From Methanoculleus sediminis (lineage in GTDB: Archaea; Halobacteriota; Methanomicrobia; Methanomicrobiales; Methanoculleaceae), in the NCBI RefSeq assembly GCF_001017125.1, contig NZ_JXOJ01000001.1, forward strand, positions 1 through 64,000: 64,000 bases of DNA, given 5' to 3'. The notes beneath the pieces were generated by a model. That model worked only from the letters and a program-made list of their open reading frames with translations. It did no database searches and was not told the origin of the DNA. A program made the translations under genes and the position numbers. Within the stretch, counting starts at the first letter, position 1. Each line of letters begins with the position of its first letter. Below, in pieces: positions 1 to 26,915 of the stretch.

Positions 1-459
1 CAGAAGATCTGAGACGTTACCTGATTTTTACTGCGGATGATAGGGTGCAGACAAGGGGGAGACCATTTCGATCGACCAGAGCGCTCAGCTTGTTCCCGTT
101 TACCTTTTTATAGCCATCATAGCCGGTCGATCCCCCTTTTTTGCCGGGATATCCTTCGTATCGGTAGAACAGTGCGAGAGATCGATTTTCTTGATCTCGT
201 ACCCGGATCGGAGCAGGTCGAGGAAGATCGCCTGATACACCCCTTTCTCACAGAGTTCGAGGTGGTACCGGTGAACCGTCGATTTCGTACCGTATTTCGT
301 CGGGACATCGAGCCAGGAACATCCGGTGGTCAGAACGTACAGGATACCGTTGAACAGCCTGCGGGGGTCACATCGGGGTCGGCCGATATGCGGCTTTGTT
401 GGGGGGAGGTATTTCTGGACAATCTCCCAGAGATCATCGTCAATTTCCCGGAATACCAT
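1..459 (-). pseudogene. IS5-family transposase, broken and cut by the window edge
   Basis: Leftward reading frame from an ATG at 459. The first 119 codons show the usual N-terminal region of IS5-type transposases (LWEIVQKYLPP, GRPRCDPRRLFNGILYVL, GCSWLDVP). This frame stops at 100-102, but the -1 frame carries on with transposase-like residues (STGYDGYKKVNGNKLSALV) to a stop at 28-30. The change of frame falls on an in-frame A AAA AAG heptamer (complement of 136-142), a classic -1 slippery site used by members of this family. Beyond 28 a further frame still looks transposase-like, so at least one true disabling indel is likely. The catalytic C-terminal half lies outside the window. The element borders the glycan cluster to its right. 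Family call is firm; activity is doubtful. Confidence 0.8.
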
Positions 460-550: not shown

Positions 551-1138
551 TCATCTTTTTTCCATTTCAATGTATCTCCCTTTTTTTATGATGTAGGTAT
601 TAGTGAGAGTGTAGGATATGCTATCAGCATCATTCCGGGAGATTATGATCCCGATTTGGTACATTTCATCTTGTATACGTTCAAGGGGAATGTTTGAATG
701 GAATCCAGATTTATCTAGATCTAATTGCAGGCTCGCAAAATGCTGAGTAATGTCAGGCCTCATTTCCATACTGGTATCAAATACATACTCTTTGGTATCT
801 GCTTTTAACAAAATATATGTGCTATAATTATAGGCGTCAACCCCCTCAATAAAGGCCCACCCATTTATTGCTATGATGCCCTTCCACTCAATTTGGCGTA
901 TCTGAATGGGGTCAATATAATATCTAATGTTGCCGGTTTCTTCTGGAATGTTGATATTATGTACCTCTGCCTCTCCATCGACAGTGAGCAGATGGCTGAA
1001 GATATAATTAGCTGACGCTAAATAGGCTAAGAAAACAAGCACTACAAAAATATGTATCAAATATCTTCGATAACGCTGATCCTGTAAATCCACTTCAATC
1101 ACCTGACTGTTGTACTGTCTTGTTAATGTAGTGCTCAA
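551..1138 (-). CDS. membrane-anchored protein of unknown function, glycan cluster
   Basis: 195 residues. A short cytoplasmic N terminus is followed by one strong membrane helix (about residues 26-46, IHIFVVLVFLAYLASANYIF) and an outside domain of about 150 residues. The domain has a beta-rich look with the segment IAINGWAFIEG (about 90-100), then YILLKADTKEYVFDT and RPDITQHF. I do not recognise a catalytic motif. It is the last gene of the leftward cluster and its start overlaps the 3' end of the sulfatase-like gene by 44 bases, so the two are probably translated together. Low GC like its neighbour. A role beside the sulfatase-like enzyme in surface-glycan modification is inference from position only. 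Confidence 0.75.
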   Translation of the reverse strand: MSTTLTRQYNSQVIEVDLQDQRYRRYLIHIFVVLVFLAYLASANYIFSHLLTVDGEAEVHNINIPEETGNIRYYIDPIQIRQIEWKGIIAINGWAFIEGVDAYNYSTYILLKADTKEYVFDTSMEMRPDITQHFASLQLDLDKSGFHSNIPLERIQDEMYQIGIIISRNDADSISYTLTNTYIIKKGRYIEMEKR

Positions 1139-2597
1139 TAACTAACGGTAACACTTCGATAGGTGGTATGTTATCATCCAAACCCTGATAGTCATAGTGC
1201 GACAGTAAAAATGCGTTTAGAACCTTATATGGTTCATCTTCTGGCATGTACTCCGATACTCCGTCATGATGTCTTAACCCGTGATCTGATTGGATAATTA
1301 TTATCGGCGGGTCATCTTCTGGGTACTGTTTGAGTAACGAATCTATTATGACTTCTATGTTCCGTGTTGTAAAAATCAGTTGCTCTAGGTAAATGTTCTT
1401 ATCTCGATAATTTGAGATATCGTTCCAGTCTATTTTATTCCCTTCGTTGTCAAAAATAAATGGCTCATGCGGAAGCAATATGTGCGCATACACAAATTTT
1501 GGTGACGGGACCTCAGATAACTCAGTTAATTTTTTTAAATCGTAAAGTCTTGAAATCCTTAATTTATCTATTCTATCAACTATTTGAGGTTCGAATATGT
1601 AGGAAAATGGTCTAATCGTAGTCATATCAACTAATATCCAATGAAATCCATCGATAAAGAGTTCATTATCTGAACAGTCTTGATAATCGAACCTATAATC
1701 CGAGAGTATATTAATATCTGGGCTAATAGTATGCATTCCAATTGCAACTGTTGTGTAGCCTTCTTTCGAAAGAGATTTCATCGCCTGATTATCATTTATC
1801 AATGAGATCAATTCCAGACGATCATTAACATGATGTAAATTAGTAATAGGTTTCATATTCAATATACTTGGGACAACGACGATTGTACTTGTATAATGTG
1901 TCCTGCTGTTTTCGGCTACGAAAAACCCTTTTGACTCCAAGAAATCCTTAAACTCACTGTTGTCATATCCCCATACCGTTTCGAGAGTTTCAAAACTAGA
2001 ATATTCGTCCAGTACAATGTAGTAAATGTCGGGGTAATCTGCTACTGAACCTGTCGTCCCGGGAGTTGATCCGGTAGAGTTACTGCTCTGGTGTATACTC
2101 ATCTGACTTTTCTGCAGTTCCGCGGGGATAATGGGCACAATGTTCACGACCAACAAAAACGCAACCGCTACGCATGACACCTTGAAGACGTTCTTGAGGA
2201 GCTCTGGCTTCTTTGCTATTGCAATGAAATAGCCAATGTATCCGGCGATAAAGAGAGTGATCGGGAGAAAATGTCTGTGTCGTAGATCAAGAGCACTGAC
2301 GGCTGTCACCCAATCGAACATGTGTCCGTATGCAAAGAAGAATACAACGAATACAGCGGAGATTACTCCTCCCTTTTTGGTATCTTTTGTGATCAGGCTA
2401 AATATTGCCCAGAGTATAAGGCTGCCCGCCCAGGCGATGCTCAACGGAAGAACGAGTTGCGAACAGGATACGATCTGAACGTTCTGCGAATAGAGATAGA
2501 CAATGGGGTAACTGGCGACCAGAACGGGGAGTATCCATCCAATGGGGATCCCCCTCAATAATTGTCCGAAGGCTTGAAATCTCTCTTTTATCGTCAT
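1095..2597 (-). CDS. sulfatase / alkaline-phosphatase-superfamily membrane enzyme
   Basis: 500 residues. The N-terminal third has about five membrane helices (residues 15-155); the C-terminal part is an outside domain of the alkaline phosphatase superfamily. Visible landmarks are the first metal-site strand DIYYIVLDEYSSF (about 190-202), a Thr/Ser-rich segment YTSTIVVVPSILNM (about 236-249) where the nucleophile would sit, HILLPHEPF (about 373-381), and the second metal site IIIIQSDHGLRHHDG (about 428-442). This arrangement is that of membrane sulfatase-like hydrolases/transferases in bacterial polysaccharide loci. Whether it removes sulfate or moves a phospho-group onto a glycan cannot be told from sequence. 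It follows the NoeA-like methyltransferase gene by 52 bases in one leftward unit. Confidence 0.85.
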   Translation of the reverse strand: MTIKERFQAFGQLLRGIPIGWILPVLVASYPIVYLYSQNVQIVSCSQLVLPLSIAWAGSLILWAIFSLITKDTKKGGVISAVFVVFFFAYGHMFDWVTAVSALDLRHRHFLPITLFIAGYIGYFIAIAKKPELLKNVFKVSCVAVAFLLVVNIVPIIPAELQKSQMSIHQSSNSTGSTPGTTGSVADYPDIYYIVLDEYSSFETLETVWGYDNSEFKDFLESKGFFVAENSRTHYTSTIVVVPSILNMKPITNLHHVNDRLELISLINDNQAMKSLSKEGYTTVAIGMHTISPDINILSDYRFDYQDCSDNELFIDGFHWILVDMTTIRPFSYIFEPQIVDRIDKLRISRLYDLKKLTELSEVPSPKFVYAHILLPHEPFIFDNEGNKIDWNDISNYRDKNIYLEQLIFTTRNIEVIIDSLLKQYPEDDPPIIIIQSDHGLRHHDGVSEYMPEDEPYKVLNAFLLSHYDYQGLDDNIPPIEVLPLVIEHYINKTVQQSGD

Positions 2598-2649
2598 CGA
2601 ATGTGCCTCATAAAGGGAGTAAGGAATTGTGCATCTCTGAGTCCCTGGA

Positions 2650-4029
2650 TTATTTGATCTTCATGAGATAGAGGACCCGCGACGAGTCCTCGATAGGCTC
2701 TTTCCTGATGATAGTGAACAGTTCCCCAAACCTCTCCTCGAACACGTCCTGTGAGTAATCGCCAAACACATCCTCGCGGTTCGCGAGCAGCTTCCTGACC
2801 TGCGAATCCTCCTTCGGCACGAACTCGATCACGAGATGGTCCGTGATCTCCGCGAAGAACCCGACAATTCTCTCGAACGGGACGTTGTTGGAGATGGCGA
2901 GGTGGTGGATCAGGGCAAGCGCGAAGACCATGTCCACGGGCCCGCGTCCGATCAACGAATCCCGTTCTGCATTCTGCCAGCCGATCCCCGGGCTTGGGTT
3001 CGTGAGATCGAGCATGAGGGGGAGAAGATTCTGCTCGTTGTTTTTCCGGATCTCGAGTGTGTTTAACTCCACGCAGGCCGGGTCGATGTCGAACGCAATG
3101 GTGGGGATGCCCCGCTCGCTTGCAAGGCGGGAGAAGACCCCGACGTTTGCTCCGAGGTCCCAGACCGACCGGGGTTGGGCAAGATCCAGGAACTCGCCGA
3201 CAAGTTTCTTCTTGTGCTCCAACCCGGCCGCCGAGTAATTTGTCTCGGTGTAGTAGTCGGCCCATTCGGTCCCGGCCGGCCTCCAGGAAAGACCCTTGAC
3301 GGCGTTGGAGAGACTGTCGAGCAGACCCAGCAGGGCGTTCCTGGCCAATTTCGGGCGCTCGATGGTCTCGTGGGTATCCGCGTGCTTTGCCTGGCTCTTT
3401 GCGTGCATGTGGATGTGCATGGCGATGCCCGGCTTGAGCCGGGTCCGCCCCGGCAGGAGAGAACTCGCGAGATCCAGGGGGACGCCGTCGATGTAGACCC
3501 TCAGCAACTGGCCGAGTCGGATATCCCGGTGGGCCATGAGCGCCAGCGGCGCAAGGAAGTGCTGGCAGAACTGCCGGTATGCTACCCAGGGGTCTCCTTC
3601 CCGGTAACGCTCGAATGAGAGGGTATCGATGAAGAGCGCTCTCCCCTTGTGGAACTGGATGTTGTAGGCGCTGGCGTCCTTGAGGGTCATCCCGTGCTCC
3701 AGCGCGATCCGCTCGACATCCAGGGTGACCAGTGCAGCCTCTTTGAGCTGGCCAAACGACCACTCGTAGGGATACGAGACGAAGGGTATCTCTTCGGGCT
3801 GGATGACGATGTACGCGTTTTCGGGCTGTTCTGGGGAGATATCGACCTCTTTGTGGGGGATCAGGCCCTGCCTGGAGACGAGTCTCTCATACAGGCCGGA
3901 CTGCATGAGGCAGTCATAGTCCTCTCGACAGGAGTCGTTGATCTGCCGGTACAGTACGCCCTCGCGTCGAAAGAGGAAGCCATCGGGATCTCTGAAGGAA
4001 CTGGGAAGAACCCCGGATTTAGTCTTCAT
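2650..4029 (-). CDS. NoeA-like class I SAM-dependent methyltransferase
   Basis: 459 residues. The N-terminal half resembles the lipopolysaccharide-kinase-like front part of NoeA-type proteins (FRDPDGFLFRREGVLYRQIN at about 12-31; DASAYNIQFHKGRALFIDTL at about 117-136). The C-terminal half is a Rossmann methyltransferase with motif I VWDLGANVGVFSRLAS (about 264-279), the acidic strand IAFDIDPACVE (about 288-298) and MVFALALIHHLAI (about 339-351). It would methylate an unknown, probably glycan-linked, acceptor with S-adenosylmethionine in the cytoplasm. GC content is visibly higher than in the sulfatase-like gene next to it. The start overlaps the end of the small membrane-protein gene by 11 bases. 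Confidence 0.85.
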   Translation of the reverse strand: MKTKSGVLPSSFRDPDGFLFRREGVLYRQINDSCREDYDCLMQSGLYERLVSRQGLIPHKEVDISPEQPENAYIVIQPEEIPFVSYPYEWSFGQLKEAALVTLDVERIALEHGMTLKDASAYNIQFHKGRALFIDTLSFERYREGDPWVAYRQFCQHFLAPLALMAHRDIRLGQLLRVYIDGVPLDLASSLLPGRTRLKPGIAMHIHMHAKSQAKHADTHETIERPKLARNALLGLLDSLSNAVKGLSWRPAGTEWADYYTETNYSAAGLEHKKKLVGEFLDLAQPRSVWDLGANVGVFSRLASERGIPTIAFDIDPACVELNTLEIRKNNEQNLLPLMLDLTNPSPGIGWQNAERDSLIGRGPVDMVFALALIHHLAISNNVPFERIVGFFAEITDHLVIEFVPKEDSQVRKLLANREDVFGDYSQDVFEERFGELFTIIRKEPIEDSSRVLYLMKIK

Positions 4030-4225
4030 GGTTAGCGGGGCTGGGTCTGAATCGGTCTTTGAGTTTCTGCCAGTACATCTTTAGTGTAAATGCTGCGCCC
4101 AACCCGACTGCGACCAGTAGCTGCCAGATCATACTCCCGACACCGGGGTCCAGGTACGCGGAAACCGATTGGGGAATGACGATCAGCGCAATGAGAATCA
4201 ATAAAATGTGCCGTAACTGCAACAT
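4019..4225 (-). CDS. small membrane protein with YLDPG motif
   Basis: 68 residues from the ATG at 4225; an in-frame GTG at 4231 is an alternative. An AGGTGA stretch just upstream of 4225 favours the ATG. The protein has an N-terminal signal-like hydrophobic helix ending at about residue 24, then AYLDPGVGSMIWQLLVAVGL, a second helix and a basic tail with KMYWQKLKDRF. The motif YLDPG(T/V)GS followed by a helix and a YW.K tail is one I know from very small proteins that sit beside sulfatases and NoeA-type methyltransferases in bacterial cell-surface loci. The gene overlaps the methyltransferase start, suggesting coupled translation. Function unknown; perhaps a scaffold for the membrane enzyme. 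Confidence 0.75.
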   Translation of the reverse strand: MLQLRHILLILIALIVIPQSVSAYLDPGVGSMIWQLLVAVGLGAAFTLKMYWQKLKDRFRPSPANHED

Positions 4226-4442
4226 GCTCACCTGATGATTAATTAGTTAAATTGTTGATGTTCCATGGTATTTACCGCTTGCGAATCGGCTGTTCTTCCT
4301 CAAAAAGAGGTCTGCGGTTGCAGTTCCCCTTATGTGTAGGGGAGTGGTACCCCTGGTGACTTTCCGTCCACTTGGCACGCGGCTCTGGGAATCCTCCTGG
4401 GTGTCTGTAAAAATTTCAGATACATAATATGAGTAGATGAAG
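4226..4442. other. intergenic gap, 217 bases
   Basis: Between the leftward 815-residue membrane protein and the YLDPG microprotein. A leftward frame of 81 codons covers much of it but has no family resemblance and no ribosome site, so I treat it as noncoding. A promoter for the microprotein/methyltransferase/sulfatase unit could lie here; the AT-rich stretch just before 4231 has no clear TATA box at a good distance. Confidence 0.4.
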
Positions 4443-20218: not shown

Positions 20219-20252
20219 ATTGGCGGTACAGTGTGACCCGGAGGAACTGCGA

Positions 20253-21566
20253 ATGGCCATTTTATCAACCAACCAGCAGGAGATAGCAGAAAGGATCGAT
20301 GCAGGTGCCGCCGCGGAAGTCTGGCGGGACTGGAGGTGGCATGTCCGGCACGCGATCACCGATATCTCCACGTTCGAGCGGCTGCTCGGCGTATCGTTCG
20401 GGCAGGACGAGCGGCGGGAGCTGGAAGAGACCGCGAGCAGGTTCCCCCTGAGGATAACCCCGTACTACCTCTCGCTCATCGATCCAAAGGATCTCTGGAA
20501 CGACCCGATCTTCATGCAGTGCTTTCCGTCACCGGCGGAGCTGCAGGTCGAGCCCGACGACATGGAAGACCCGCTTGCCGAGGACGCCGATCACCCGGCC
20601 CCCTGCATCACCCACCGCTACCCCGACCGGGTGCTGTTCCTGGTCAGCAACGTCTGCGCCATGTACTGCCGGCACTGCACCCGGAAGCGGAAGGTCGGGG
20701 ACGTCGACTCCGTCCCCTCGGAAACCGAGATCCTCGAGAGCCTCGACTACATCCGGGAGAACCCCGGTATCCGGGACGTCCTCCTCTCCGGGGGCGACCC
20801 GTTCATGCTCCCCGACGACCGCCTCGACTGGATCCTGACCGAACTCGACGACATCGAGCACGTCGAGGTGGTCCGGATCGGCAGCCGGGTTCCGGTCGTC
20901 CTCCCCTACCGGGTCACGGACGACCTCGCCAGGATGCTCGCCCGTCACCACCCGCTCTGGGTGAACACCCACTTCAACCACCCGGCGGAGATCACCACGT
21001 CCTCACAGAAAGCGCTCGCCCGGCTTGCCGATGCCGGCATACCGCTCGGCAACCAGACCGTCCTCCTGGCGGGGGTGAACGACTGCCCCCGGATCATGAA
21101 GACCCTGGTGCAGAAACTCGTCCGGAACCGGGTCCGCCCCTACTATCTCTACCAGTGCGACCTCTCCGAGGGGCTCACCCACTTCCGCACCCCGGTCTCG
21201 AAGGGGATCGAGATCGTCGAGAGCCTTATCGGGCATACCAGCGGGTTTGCCGTCCCGACCTACGTCATCGACGCTCCCGGCGGCGGCGGGAAGATCCCGG
21301 TGATGCCCCAGTACCTCATCTCCTGGGCAACGAACCGGGTGGTGCTCCGGAACTTCGAGGGGGTGATCACCACTTACCGCGAGCCCGACTCCTACGAACC
21401 GGTCTGGTGCGACCGCAAGTGCGCGACCTGCGGGCAGTACCTCAAACTCGAGGGCGCGGACGAGTCCAAGGCGGTCGGGATCGTCAAACTCCTCTCCGAC
21501 GAGGACCCGACGACTGCGCTCGTCCCGGAGAACACCGAGCGGTTCGAGCGGAGAAATGAGTCCTGA
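20253..21566 (+). CDS. ablA: lysine 2,3-aminomutase
   Basis: 437 residues from the ATG at 20253, chosen because a GGAGG lies seven bases upstream. Radical SAM cluster cysteines are in [14 protein letters not shown] (C135, C139, C142), the SAM-binding glycines in [10 protein letters not shown], the PLP lysine in APGGGGKIP (about 347-355), and the zinc cysteines in CDRKCATC near the C terminus. It turns L-alpha-lysine into beta-lysine. With the acetyltransferase that overlaps it by 11 bases it makes N-epsilon-acetyl-beta-lysine, the salt-stress solute of methanogens. The archaeal length and gene pairing are typical. Confidence 0.95.
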
Positions 21567-22395
21567 CACCGTCACGACGATCGGCGGCACTCTCGTCCAG
21601 CACGGGCGGTTGAGCGACCGCATCTACGTGATGCACCTCTCGCCCGCCGACCTCCCAGAAATCCTCGACGATCTGGATGCGCTCTCACAGAAGGAGGGTT
21701 ACTCGAAGATATTTGCAAAGGTGCCCGCCTCCGCCCTCCCGCTCTTCATCTCCCGGGGCTACGTCGTCGAGGCACGGGTTCCGGGATTCTTCCGGGGCAG
21801 GGAGGACGGGTATTTCGCGGCGAAGTTCTTTGATGCGGAACGCCGGCGGGAGTCGGGTGACGTCGCCGCGGTCCTCGCGGCCGTCCGGGAGAAGGCTGGC
21901 GATGCCCATCCGGCCGCCCTTCCGCCCGGCTGGACGTGCGCCCCTGCGGCGGAAGACGACGCCGACGACCTTGCCGCGCTCTACGGCGAGGTCTTTGCGA
22001 CCTACCCGTTCCCCATCGGTGATCCCGGCTACCTGCGGGAGACGATGGCCGGGGACTACCGCTACTTCCTCGTCCGCACCGAAGACGGCCGGCTTGCCGC
22101 GGCCTCCTCGGCGGAGATCTACCGCGAGGACGAGAACGTCGAGATGACCGACTTCGCCGTGCACCCGGATTTCCGGGGCAAAAGCCTCTCGGGCTTCCTC
22201 CTTTTGCGGATGGAGGAGGAGATGCGGGCGGCCGGGATGAAGACCGCCTTCACCATCGCCCGGGCTCTCTCCTACCCGATCAACGCCGTGTTTGCCCGGG
22301 CGGGGTACGCGTGGGGGGGCACCCTCGTCAATAACACCAACATCTGCGGCGGGTTCGAGAGCATGAACGTCTGGTCTCGGCCGCTGGAGAGGTGA
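21556..22395 (+). CDS. ablB: beta-lysine N6-acetyltransferase
   Basis: 279 residues, overlapping ablA. Residues about 25-110 form an N-terminal domain ([24 protein letters not shown]); the GNAT domain follows with the acetyl-CoA loop [20 protein letters not shown] (about 196-215) and a closing [16 protein letters not shown]. The protein ends [19 protein letters not shown], a tail typical of AblB. It acetylates the side-chain amine of beta-lysine to give the compatible solute. Confidence 0.93.
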
Positions 22396-23763: not shown

Positions 23764-25227
23764 TTATGAAGATCCTTCCCGCTCCGCGTCCTTCTTCCGG
23801 TACCCCTCGAGCAGGATCGTCGTCAGGTTTTTGACGGGCACGTCCGTGCAGTCCGCGATATGGAACTCGCAGAACGGGCAGACCGTCACCACCACGTCCG
23901 CGCCGGTCGCCTTCACGCACTCGTCGCGCTTCGCCCCGAGGGCCTTTGCCTCCTCCGGCACCCCCGACCGGACGCCGCCGCCGGCGCCGCAGCACTGCGT
24001 CGGCATCTCCACGAACTCCCTGACGGCTTCGCGGAGGAGCGTCCGCGGCTGCTCGCTGATCCCCTGGCCGCGGAGGAGGTGGCAGGGGTCGTGGTAGGTC
24101 GCCCTGATATCGAGCTTCGCCGGGGGCTCGATCCCGTACTCGGTGAGGATCTCCGTGACGTCTTTCACCGTAAACGGCGTCTCGTAATCGTTCTTCAGCG
24201 TCGCCCCGCACCCGGCGCAGATCGTCATCACGGTCTTGATCCCGCGGCGGGCGAAGGCCTCGATGTTCTTCTTCTTCAGGTCGTCAAGGAACGACGTCTG
24301 CCCCGTCCGGATCAGCGGCGAGCCGCAGCAGACCTGGTCGTGGGGGACGATCACCCGGATGCCGTTGCGCTTCATCACTTCCATCGCGTCGAGCGCCGTC
24401 TGCGGCACCCGGCCGTTGAACATGCACCCGACGAAGAACCCCACCTCGCCGCGGACGGGGCCGTCGGGCTCGATCACCTCCGGCACCTCTTCGAGGAAGG
24501 TCGGCTGCGTCCGCTCGACGCTCCGGCCGGTCTCCTGCACCAGCCGCGCCACCTCCTGGTGGCGGGGGAGGGTCAGCCCGCGGCGGTTCGCGATCTCCCG
24601 GAGTTTCTCGATCGCCTTGCCCGGGATCTCGATATCTTTCGGGCAGACCTCCGTGCAGCGCTTGCAGGTCGTGCAGTAGAAGAGCCCCTTCTCGATGGCA
24701 TCGGTGATCCTGTCCCCCGAGTCGCGGGGATCGAGGGCGAGGCGCATCTCCTGCCGGAGCACTGTCGGCCCCGCGAAATCCGTCACCTGGAGCGCCGGGC
24801 AGGCCGATACGCAGCAGAGGCACTCGATGCAGTCCCGGAGCGGCTTGATCGCCTCGATCTCTTCACGTGCCGGGAGGGCTGCGTCCGGAGCCGGGCAGAT
24901 CCGGGCGATCTTTGCTATCACCGGCTCCAGGTCGACCATCAGGTCTTTCAAGACCGGGAGGGCCAGCGGCTCGACCGTCATCCCGTCGCGGGCCTCCTCC
25001 ATGCAGGCGAGGACGGGTTTCCCGTCCACCCGGACGGCGCAGCTCCCGCACTGCCCGGACCCGCAGCAGTAGCGGTAGGCGAGCGTCGGGTCGTGCTCGT
25101 CGCGGACGGCGTGGAGGGCGTGGAGCACCCGGGCGCCCTCGTTGACCCTGACGGTGTACTCCTCGAAGTGCGGCTCCGCGTCCACGGCGGGGTCGAAACG
25201 GGAGACCCGGAGGGTGATCGTCTTCAT
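23764..25227 (-). CDS. tfrB: CoM/CoB-dependent fumarate reductase, iron-sulfur subunit
   Basis: 487 residues from the ATG at 25227, which overlaps the tfrA stop as ATGA; the frame is open further upstream but only as a shadow of tfrA. Order of domains: a 2Fe-2S ferredoxin part (YCCGSGQCGSCAVRVDG, about 53-69), two 4Fe-4S motifs (CIECLCCVSACP at about 133-144; CTTCKRCTEVCP at about 187-198), and two heterodisulfide-reductase-like CCG domains (VCCGSPLI, TICAGCGAT, TQCCGAGGGVRSG). It passes electrons from coenzymes M and B to TfrA, giving succinate and CoM-S-S-CoB. Marks the organism as a methanogen. Confidence 0.93.
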   Translation of the reverse strand: MKTITLRVSRFDPAVDAEPHFEEYTVRVNEGARVLHALHAVRDEHDPTLAYRYCCGSGQCGSCAVRVDGKPVLACMEEARDGMTVEPLALPVLKDLMVDLEPVIAKIARICPAPDAALPAREEIEAIKPLRDCIECLCCVSACPALQVTDFAGPTVLRQEMRLALDPRDSGDRITDAIEKGLFYCTTCKRCTEVCPKDIEIPGKAIEKLREIANRRGLTLPRHQEVARLVQETGRSVERTQPTFLEEVPEVIEPDGPVRGEVGFFVGCMFNGRVPQTALDAMEVMKRNGIRVIVPHDQVCCGSPLIRTGQTSFLDDLKKKNIEAFARRGIKTVMTICAGCGATLKNDYETPFTVKDVTEILTEYGIEPPAKLDIRATYHDPCHLLRGQGISEQPRTLLREAVREFVEMPTQCCGAGGGVRSGVPEEAKALGAKRDECVKATGADVVVTVCPFCEFHIADCTDVPVKNLTTILLEGYRKKDAEREGSS

Positions 25228-26855
25228 GCCGCCACCTCCCGCCGCTCGATCCCCTCCCGGGTGAGCGAGACGTAGGTGTGGGAGAACGGCGACGTCGCCG
25301 GATCGGTCGCCACGTCGGCGTCCAGCCGGACGTGGGCTCCCCGGTTCTCCGGCCGCAGCAGGGCGCACCGGACGATCAGGGACGCCGTGGTGCACATGTT
25401 CCGGACGGTGCAGCATTCGAGCAGGTTCGCGGTCGAGGCGGCGCAGAGCCGCTTGTCCGCCAGCCGGCGAACGTGCCCGAGCGCCGTCCGGAGGTCGGGG
25501 GCGTTCCTGAAGATGCCGGCCTGGTTCCACATCGTGAGTTTCAGGTCTTTCCTGACGTCTACGGGACTTATCGCACCCTCGAAGAAACCGTCGAGCATCC
25601 GGGTCACCTCATCGATCCGGGCGGGATCGATCCGGCCGCTCCGTGCGGGCGCCTTCCCGGCGAACTCCCCGGCCCGCTTCCCGAAGACCTGCGTGTCCGC
25701 GAGCGCGTTCCCGCCGAGGCGGTTTGCGCCGTGCACTCCGCCGGCTACCTCCCCGCAGGCGAAGAGGCCGGGGATGGTCGTCCGGCACTCCGGGGTGATC
25801 CGGAGCCCTCCCATGATGTGGTGGGCGGTCGGAGCGACCTCCATCGGCTCCCGCCGGATATCCACGCCGTACGCGAGGAACTGCTCGAGCATCACCGGGA
25901 GCCGGGCTTCGATCGTCTCCGCCGGGAGGTGGGTCACGTCCAGGTAGACCCCGCCGCGGCTCGTCCCCCGGCCCTCCAGCACTTCGGTCGCGATCGCCCG
26001 CGCAACCACGTCCCGGGTGGAGAGTTCCATCCGCTCGGGATCGTAGCGCTTCATGAACCGCTCCCGCCGCGCGTTCAGGAGAAGCCCTCCCTCGCCCCGG
26101 ACCGCCTCCGTCACCAGGCGGCCGCGGGCGTCGTAGGGGTAGACGGCACCCGTCGGGTGGAACTGGACCATCTCCATATCGATCAGTTCAGCCCCCGCCC
26201 GGTAGGCCATGGCGAAGCCGTCCCCGGTCCCGGCGGCGGAGTTCGTGGATATATCGTAGACCTGCGTCCCTCCGCCGGTCGCGAGCACCGTCGCGTCGGA
26301 GCGGAAGAACACGACGTCCCCGTCCCGGTCGAGAGCAATCGCGCCGGCGACCGCCCCGTTCTCGTCTTTGATGAAGTCGACGACCGAGACCTCCTGGTAG
26401 AGGTGCGTATCGGTCGCGTCGAGCCGGTCGAGGAGGGTCATGATCATCTCGTGACCGGTCCTGTCCCCGGCGTAGCAGGTCCGGGGGAACCGCTGCCCGC
26501 CGAACGGCCGCTGCGCGACCTGCCGGTCCTCCGTGACGTCGAAGACGGCGCCCCACCGGACGAGGTCGGCCATCCGTTCCGGCGCCTCGCGGACCAGCGC
26601 GTCCGCGAGTGCCGGGTCGTTTAAGTACGCCCCGCCTTTCAGCGTATCCTCGCGGTGGACGTCGACCGAGTCCCGGTCGCGCAGCACGGCGTTGTAGCCG
26701 CCTTCCGCCATCGTCGTGCACCCGCCTTTGCCGGCGATGGTCTTGGAGACCATGACCACGTCGCCGTACCGGGAGGCCTCGATGGCGGCCCGCACCCCGG
26801 CGCCGCCGCTTCCGACAACCAGCACGTGCGCGTCCACAATCTCGTCTACATGCAT
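25224..26855 (-). CDS. tfrA: CoM/CoB-dependent fumarate reductase, flavoprotein subunit
   Basis: 543 residues from the ATG at 26855. An ATG ten codons upstream (26885) is open too, but a TATA-like GTATTATAC lies about 25 bases before 26855, which suits a leaderless transcript. The FAD site is VLVVGSGGAGVRAAIEASRY; GGCTTMAEGGYNAVL, MVQFHPTGAV and AHHIMGGLRI are the usual fumarate-reductase/succinate-dehydrogenase flavoprotein landmarks, including the active-site histidine and glycine loop. It reduces fumarate to succinate for biosynthesis. Divergent from aspartate kinase. Confidence 0.93.
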   Translation of the reverse strand: MHVDEIVDAHVLVVGSGGAGVRAAIEASRYGDVVMVSKTIAGKGGCTTMAEGGYNAVLRDRDSVDVHREDTLKGGAYLNDPALADALVREAPERMADLVRWGAVFDVTEDRQVAQRPFGGQRFPRTCYAGDRTGHEMIMTLLDRLDATDTHLYQEVSVVDFIKDENGAVAGAIALDRDGDVVFFRSDATVLATGGGTQVYDISTNSAAGTGDGFAMAYRAGAELIDMEMVQFHPTGAVYPYDARGRLVTEAVRGEGGLLLNARRERFMKRYDPERMELSTRDVVARAIATEVLEGRGTSRGGVYLDVTHLPAETIEARLPVMLEQFLAYGVDIRREPMEVAPTAHHIMGGLRITPECRTTIPGLFACGEVAGGVHGANRLGGNALADTQVFGKRAGEFAGKAPARSGRIDPARIDEVTRMLDGFFEGAISPVDVRKDLKLTMWNQAGIFRNAPDLRTALGHVRRLADKRLCAASTANLLECCTVRNMCTTASLIVRCALLRPENRGAHVRLDADVATDPATSPFSHTYVSLTREGIERREVAA

Positions 26856-26915
26856 CTTATTAGTCGGTGCGTTGTATAATACCATAAAGTAATTGCAGGG
26901 GACTAGTGAGCCAGA

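Follow-up and report, generated by a model that had tools for sequence, protein, structure and literature searches.

The noeA and noeB genes of Sinorhizobium meliloti have been on record since 1995 as nodulation genes that affect host range (Ardourel 1995, cited in PMC9048898 and PMC9758233); a nodulation-poor strain with a truncated noeA has also been described (PMC4053727). In the S. meliloti operon nodL-noeA-noeB (nod box n5), a 71-residue open reading frame with the motif YLDPGTGS, noeA and noeB follow one another in the same order and on the same strand as their counterparts here, and nodL, the 71-residue YLDPGTGS protein (annotated as hypothetical), NoeA and NoeB are arranged alike in Rhizobium T1470. 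In PMC9758233, NoeA-type proteins are recognised as fusions of a kinase and a methyltransferase whose genomic neighbours are conserved, Methanoculleus included, and NoeB is given an alkaline-phosphatase-superfamily (AlkP) fold. The paper also describes the Lani_1194 family of Legionella anisa, again a kinase-methyltransferase with an AlkP-fold neighbour; among 816 neighbourhoods its neighbours, Lani_1193 and Lani_1195, are retained in 65% and 38%. The discussion there is of Legionella effectors, and the main text is silent on Lani_1193 being the microprotein. A further kinase-methyltransferase, WbdD of Escherichia coli O9a, makes a methyl-phosphate cap (PMC3482155), and PMC9758233 relates WbdD no more than remotely to another kinase-methyltransferase family (Lcin_0519).

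We have found that a unit of the noeA-noeB kind lies at the start of a contig of the methane-making archaeon Methanoculleus sediminis. Within the window (the whole stretch of 64,000 nucleotides that was analysed), all four genes of the preliminary description are present where it placed them, on the minus strand: a microprotein gene with the motif YLDPGVGS (4019-4231), a gene for a NoeA-like protein with kinase-like and methyltransferase parts (2650-4029; 459 residues, ATG start), a gene for a NoeB-like membrane AlkP enzyme (1095-2597; 500 residues) and a fourth gene for a membrane-anchored protein (551-1138; 195 residues from an uncertain TTG start). The microprotein would have 70 residues from a GTG; because a Shine-Dalgarno-like AGGTGA stands just 5′ of the ATG at 4225, we take that ATG as its start, giving 68 residues. 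The microprotein and methyltransferase genes overlap by 11 nt, 52 nt separate the methyltransferase gene from the AlkP gene, and the fourth open reading frame overlaps the end of the AlkP gene by 44 nt. A partial IS5-type transposase (window 100-459) adjoins the unit, and upstream of it are genes for an 815-residue membrane protein, a methyltransferase, a GT2/flippase-like fusion and several epimerases. Compared with the S. meliloti operon, the host is archaeal, there is no plant host and no nodL, and the fourth gene is extra. The unit had been put forward as undescribed, a claim that must be withdrawn: it is homologous to S. meliloti noeA-noeB, and both neighbourhood and fusion are already reported in PMC9758233, so that its kind was known. 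New here are the all-or-none inheritance of the three families, the pairing of one methyltransferase locus with one to six AlkPs, the constant core beside exchangeable AlkPs, and the conservation of the fourth gene. Our preferred reading, to which we assign a probability of about 0.5, is that the three genes form a three-part machine of the noeA-noeB type that modifies a surface glycan or glycolipid. We also note two unrelated gene pairs elsewhere in the window. At 20220-22395, a lysine-2,3-aminomutase-type radical SAM gene is followed by a GNAT acetyltransferase gene, which we take to be the usual N-acetyl-beta-lysine osmolyte pair, and at 23764-26885 an iron-sulfur/cysteine-rich protein and a flavoprotein resemble subunits of thiol:fumarate (succinate) reductase.

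The NoeA-like protein earns its name, being homologous to Rhizobium and Sinorhizobium NoeA along its full length (35-36% identity at 99% query coverage by tblastn and alignment; 35% for the S. meliloti protein). It consists of a kinase-like N-terminal half, for which Pfam and NCBIfam hold no model, fused to a class I SAM methyltransferase (DLGANVG), and all of 53 relatives share R28, D118, N123 and D135 of the kinase as well as the SAM-binding motif. Its AF2 model (pLDDT 90.9) shows a kinase-like order of elements and then a methyltransferase domain, and from the sequence we would predict ATP-dependent phosphorylation and methyl transfer. The top Foldseek match of the model is WbdD, over 218 columns that we take to be the methyltransferase part. 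WbdD likewise unites a kinase and a class I methyltransferase in one protein, one that makes a methyl-phosphate cap (PMC3482155), and this match, together with the glycan genes around the window locus, raises the possibility of WbdD-like capping, in which NoeA would phosphorylate and methylate the end of a growing lipid-linked glycan and so halt its growth, with the AlkP later trimming or replacing the cap outside. We nevertheless consider this unlikely. WbdD runs methyltransferase, kinase, coiled coil (PMC3482155), whereas the window protein has the opposite order and no coiled-coil ruler is seen in it, and one NoeA locus beside many AlkPs in a genome, as described below, is easier to reconcile with a common supply step than with the capping of a single polymer. 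A further difference is that WbdD has neither a microprotein nor an AlkP partner. In a tree of the methyltransferases the archaeal proteins are placed among bacterial ones, which is consistent with transfer from bacteria to archaea, a direction that we infer only, because most of the deep forks are weak.

The AlkP enzyme had been called sulfatase-like, and that part of the naming does not hold. Its active-site residues are D197, T238 (the predicted nucleophile), H372 and D438-H439; the nucleophile position carries threonine in 54 of 56 relatives and serine in the other 2, and the formylglycine site C/S-x-P-x-R is absent, with no C-x-P-x-R in any of the 56 sequences. This active site speaks against a formylglycine sulfatase, and we rejected that identity. 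PF00884 ("Sulfatase") is matched by 41 of 52 relatives, the window AlkP itself matching no model in Pfam or NCBIfam, and there are some sequence matches to solved sulfatases; that the AlkP is nevertheless a true sulfatase which desulfates glycans beside unrelated tailoring genes is, given the active site and the co-inheritance of the three families, hardly credible. In the AF2 model (pLDDT 89.5), N-terminal helices precede the AlkP domain, and the nearest solved folds by Foldseek are MCR-1, EptC, EptA and LtaS. With the phosphoethanolamine transferases EptA, EptC and MCR-1 and with LtaS the enzyme shares N-terminal membrane helices, the AlkP domain, a threonine nucleophile and D-H metal ligands, although identity to them is only 10-15% and the profile matches to EptA and EptC are weak (E 0.002-0.003). 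From fold and active site we would predict an EptA/LtaS-like action, transfer or cleavage of a phospho-group. The window AlkP is very divergent from S. meliloti NoeB, which belongs to the AlkP family all the same: aligned with a family alignment that lacks it, NoeB gives an hhalign probability of 98.6 (E 1e-15, 280 columns).

By hydropathy, the microprotein consists of a hydrophobic signal-like stretch, YLDPGVGSxxxQ, one transmembrane stretch and a charged tail. Y26, D28, S33 and Q37 are invariant in an alignment of 26 rows, and the window copy fits the family pattern of Y-[LIV]-D-P-G-x-G-S-x3-Q, one following transmembrane stretch and adjacency to noeA. Pfam and NCBIfam hold no model for it, and a text search of the literature for YLDPG returned nothing specific. 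Of 88 microproteins, 61 have a signal-like stretch that includes a small residue ahead of the motif tyrosine, and others (L058, L051, L068) start with the motif or very shortly before it; the functional part is therefore probably Y(L/I)DPGxGSxxxQ with one transmembrane stretch and the charged tail, and the predicted topology would have the motif face outside. The idea that the microprotein occurs only with NoeA was rejected, because relatives with YIDPN(T/A)G stand beside threonine-type AlkPs and sulfotransferases where NoeA is missing (L147, L164, L199). At L147:5980-6189 and L164:5974-6165, the AlkP protein directly after a YIDPNTGG variant is of the type I phosphodiesterase family, and sulfotransferases and more threonine-type AlkPs are close by where NoeA is absent, an arrangement that is possibly a sister system; at L199:4953-5207, in a pseudomonadotal genome, the microprotein adjoins a threonine-type AlkP and a sulfotransferase (PF13469). 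A weak match in G462 was set aside, as it belongs to a different family with YIGPG. Next to another sulfotransferase (L200:1458-1655) is a different small protein with a signal-like stretch, AYIGPGLGVG, a transmembrane stretch and a basic tail, which is another microprotein family with the same layout.

To assess how tightly the genes are linked, we assembled 92 full-length methyltransferase loci; their sources were the host's order, plasmids and 80 contigs of genomes that span many bacterial phyla. In 88 of these the microprotein adjoins the methyltransferase or is separated from it by a single gene; the other four have at most about 200 nt of contig upstream, so that every testable locus (88/88) is positive, and in all 88 the two genes share a strand. 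The microprotein usually overlaps the methyltransferase start or sits within a few bases of it; two loci (L063, L073) have an AlkP gene between the two, and four have the microprotein 3′ of the methyltransferase. An AlkP gene is found within 600 nt in 66 of the 92. Some of the other loci are on truncated contigs, and most of the rest come from Anaerolineae, in which the core adjoins genes for DprA, mannose-1-phosphate guanylyltransferase (these two named by eye from sequence) and TopA. That the Anaerolineae core stands beside TopA and DprA, which are not glycan genes, counts against the reading as a surface-modifying machine. A search around the core for any one conserved pathway gave none. 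The proposal that the genes always form one operon was also rejected, core and AlkP being separate in Anaerolineae. All the same, AlkP matches were present in 20 of 20 genomes tested, 16 of them with no adjacent AlkP, weak matches being the only ones in a few (e.g. G070). The preliminary claim of a conserved unit that includes the microprotein is thus borne out: the linkage is far beyond chance, and the families also co-occur across genomes. In Leptolinea (L048:6862-9789) the microprotein-methyltransferase pair comes after genes for a short-chain dehydrogenase, a cytidylyltransferase and NeuB, a context that links it to nonulosonic-acid-type sugars. In S. meliloti RCAM1115 (L212:3947-5385), noeA is broken into two frames, and the microprotein gene and noeB are intact.

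Whole genomes give the same picture of joint presence. Among 148 genomes of the host's archaeal phylum, microprotein, methyltransferase and AlkP (E<=1e-15) all occur in the same 4 and none occurs in the other 144. The methyltransferase is present in 19 of 151 Chloroflexota genomes, and so is the microprotein, 18 of these being shared and one having the microprotein only; besides these microprotein genomes, G349 (L198) has a weak copy of the microprotein adjacent to its methyltransferase. The AlkP subfamily (E<=1e-40) is found in 16 Chloroflexota genomes, all within the 19 methyltransferase carriers, and in 0 of 132 others (Fisher 6e-19, kinship not corrected). The AlkP profile derives from genes beside noeA, so that the definition of the subfamily is biased. 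In Pseudomonadota, 5 of 299 genomes have the methyltransferase, all with the microprotein, and 2 more have microprotein-like matches. Acquired and lost jointly in very distant microbes, the three genes very probably form one machine, which would decorate the cell surface. One Chloroflexota genome (G284, L163:5003-6080) has a decayed methyltransferase gene, a frame-broken microprotein gene and no strong AlkP match, a pattern that is joint loss of the unit.

The 16 Chloroflexota genomes hold 40 AlkP matches (a few of them partial) against one methyltransferase each, so that a single methyltransferase locus coexists with one to six AlkPs. This suggests that one core serves several AlkPs, either by supplying them with a common donor or by activating them in a common step. 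In the latter case NoeA and the microprotein would act as a maturase, modifying or assisting AlkPs during or after export much as one sulfatase-maturing enzyme serves many sulfatases; the ratio of one locus to one to six AlkPs would be explained, as would the absence of the AlkP subfamily where the pair is absent and the occurrence of microprotein relatives beside other threonine-type AlkPs in loci that lack NoeA. Such a role is, in our view, quite improbable, as an EptA/LtaS-type threonine nucleophile needs no known maturation and a kinase-methyltransferase has no known precedent in it. The preferred reading of a glycan- or glycolipid-modifying machine accommodates the same ratio if, as is probable, the core makes a shared donor or intermediate. 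Stand-alone AlkPs lie near glycosyltransferases, cytidylyltransferases, NeuB and 2-hydroxyacid dehydrogenases, surroundings that point to surface sugars. In Chloroflexota they repeatedly stand beside a D-2-hydroxyacid dehydrogenase (L226, L228, L229, L230, L234, L235, L240), often also with a short-chain dehydrogenase or cytidylyltransferase, in what is a putative sugar-acid pathway.

Comparison with three congeners shows which part of the unit is constant. By blastn (L205, L206, L207), DNA identity of about 90% at the locus is limited to window positions 2648-4293 of the minus strand, that is, the microprotein and methyltransferase genes and some 60 nt upstream, and the DNA flanking this block is unrelated. 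The congeners' AlkPs are of a 757-765-residue type (stop-to-stop) that is 41-45% identical to a Pelotomaculum AlkP and only about 17% identical to that of the window, the closest relatives of which are instead AlkPs of Thermincola (39%) and two Chloroflexota. The earlier suggestion that the fourth gene at 551 may belong to the unit is borne out: we find its homologues directly after the AlkP genes of exactly these closest relatives (L092, with three domain copies, L066 and L034). Its membrane-anchored product has a domain with GWAFxxG...FDT..RPDVT and no Pfam family; by its distribution it appears to be an accessory specific to the window's AlkP subtype. Since the same core has different AlkPs in congeners and the fourth gene tracks the AlkP subtype, the sequences indicate a constant core of microprotein and methyltransferase beside an exchangeable AlkP that is swapped with its accessory. 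Unrelated flanking DNA and a patchy distribution would also be expected of mobile surface-locus cargo, three genes that travel jointly and have no joint function. We find this highly improbable, because the unit is conserved for homologues of about 60% identity across many phyla and the AlkP co-occurs in Anaerolineae even when unlinked.

In the three-part machine that we favour, the NoeA-like protein would phosphorylate and methylate a membrane-bound carrier or glycan in the cytoplasm, as its conserved active sites and the precedent of WbdD suggest. That precedent is imperfect, which counts against this reading: the two domains of WbdD stand in reverse order, and the alignment covered the methyltransferase part of WbdD alone. 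The one-pass microprotein, with its YLDPGxGS end outside, may hold this step at the membrane and couple it to the outer face, a role proposed from its topology and from translational coupling. Outside, the AlkP threonine would transfer or cleave a phospho-group of a surface glycan, as in EptA and LtaS, if fold and active site are a guide. What the core supplies would be a donor or intermediate common to the AlkPs; the choice of acceptor would lie with the exchangeable AlkP and the accessory that goes with it, of which the fourth gene is an example. The preliminary description of the module as glycan-modifying is plausible only, on the basis of locus context, fold and the nodulation phenotype of noeAB in the literature.

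More tentatively, and as a possibility rather than an expectation, the unit may exemplify an envelope system that is widespread in bacteria and archaea and has gone unrecognised. In it, a single cytosolic kinase-methyltransferase would work with its microprotein to produce a new methylated phospho-donor for interchangeable AlkP-fold surface transferases (or to activate these enzymes), and S. meliloti noeA-noeB would be one specialised copy. A strict three-family unit across many bacterial phyla and some methanogens makes the question of what noeA and noeB do testable in a laboratory symbiont. It would also recast this gene pair as a defined envelope-modification machine, the microprotein of which has been annotated as hypothetical at best. 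A methane-making archaeon thus shares the three-gene set by which alfalfa symbionts choose their host plants.
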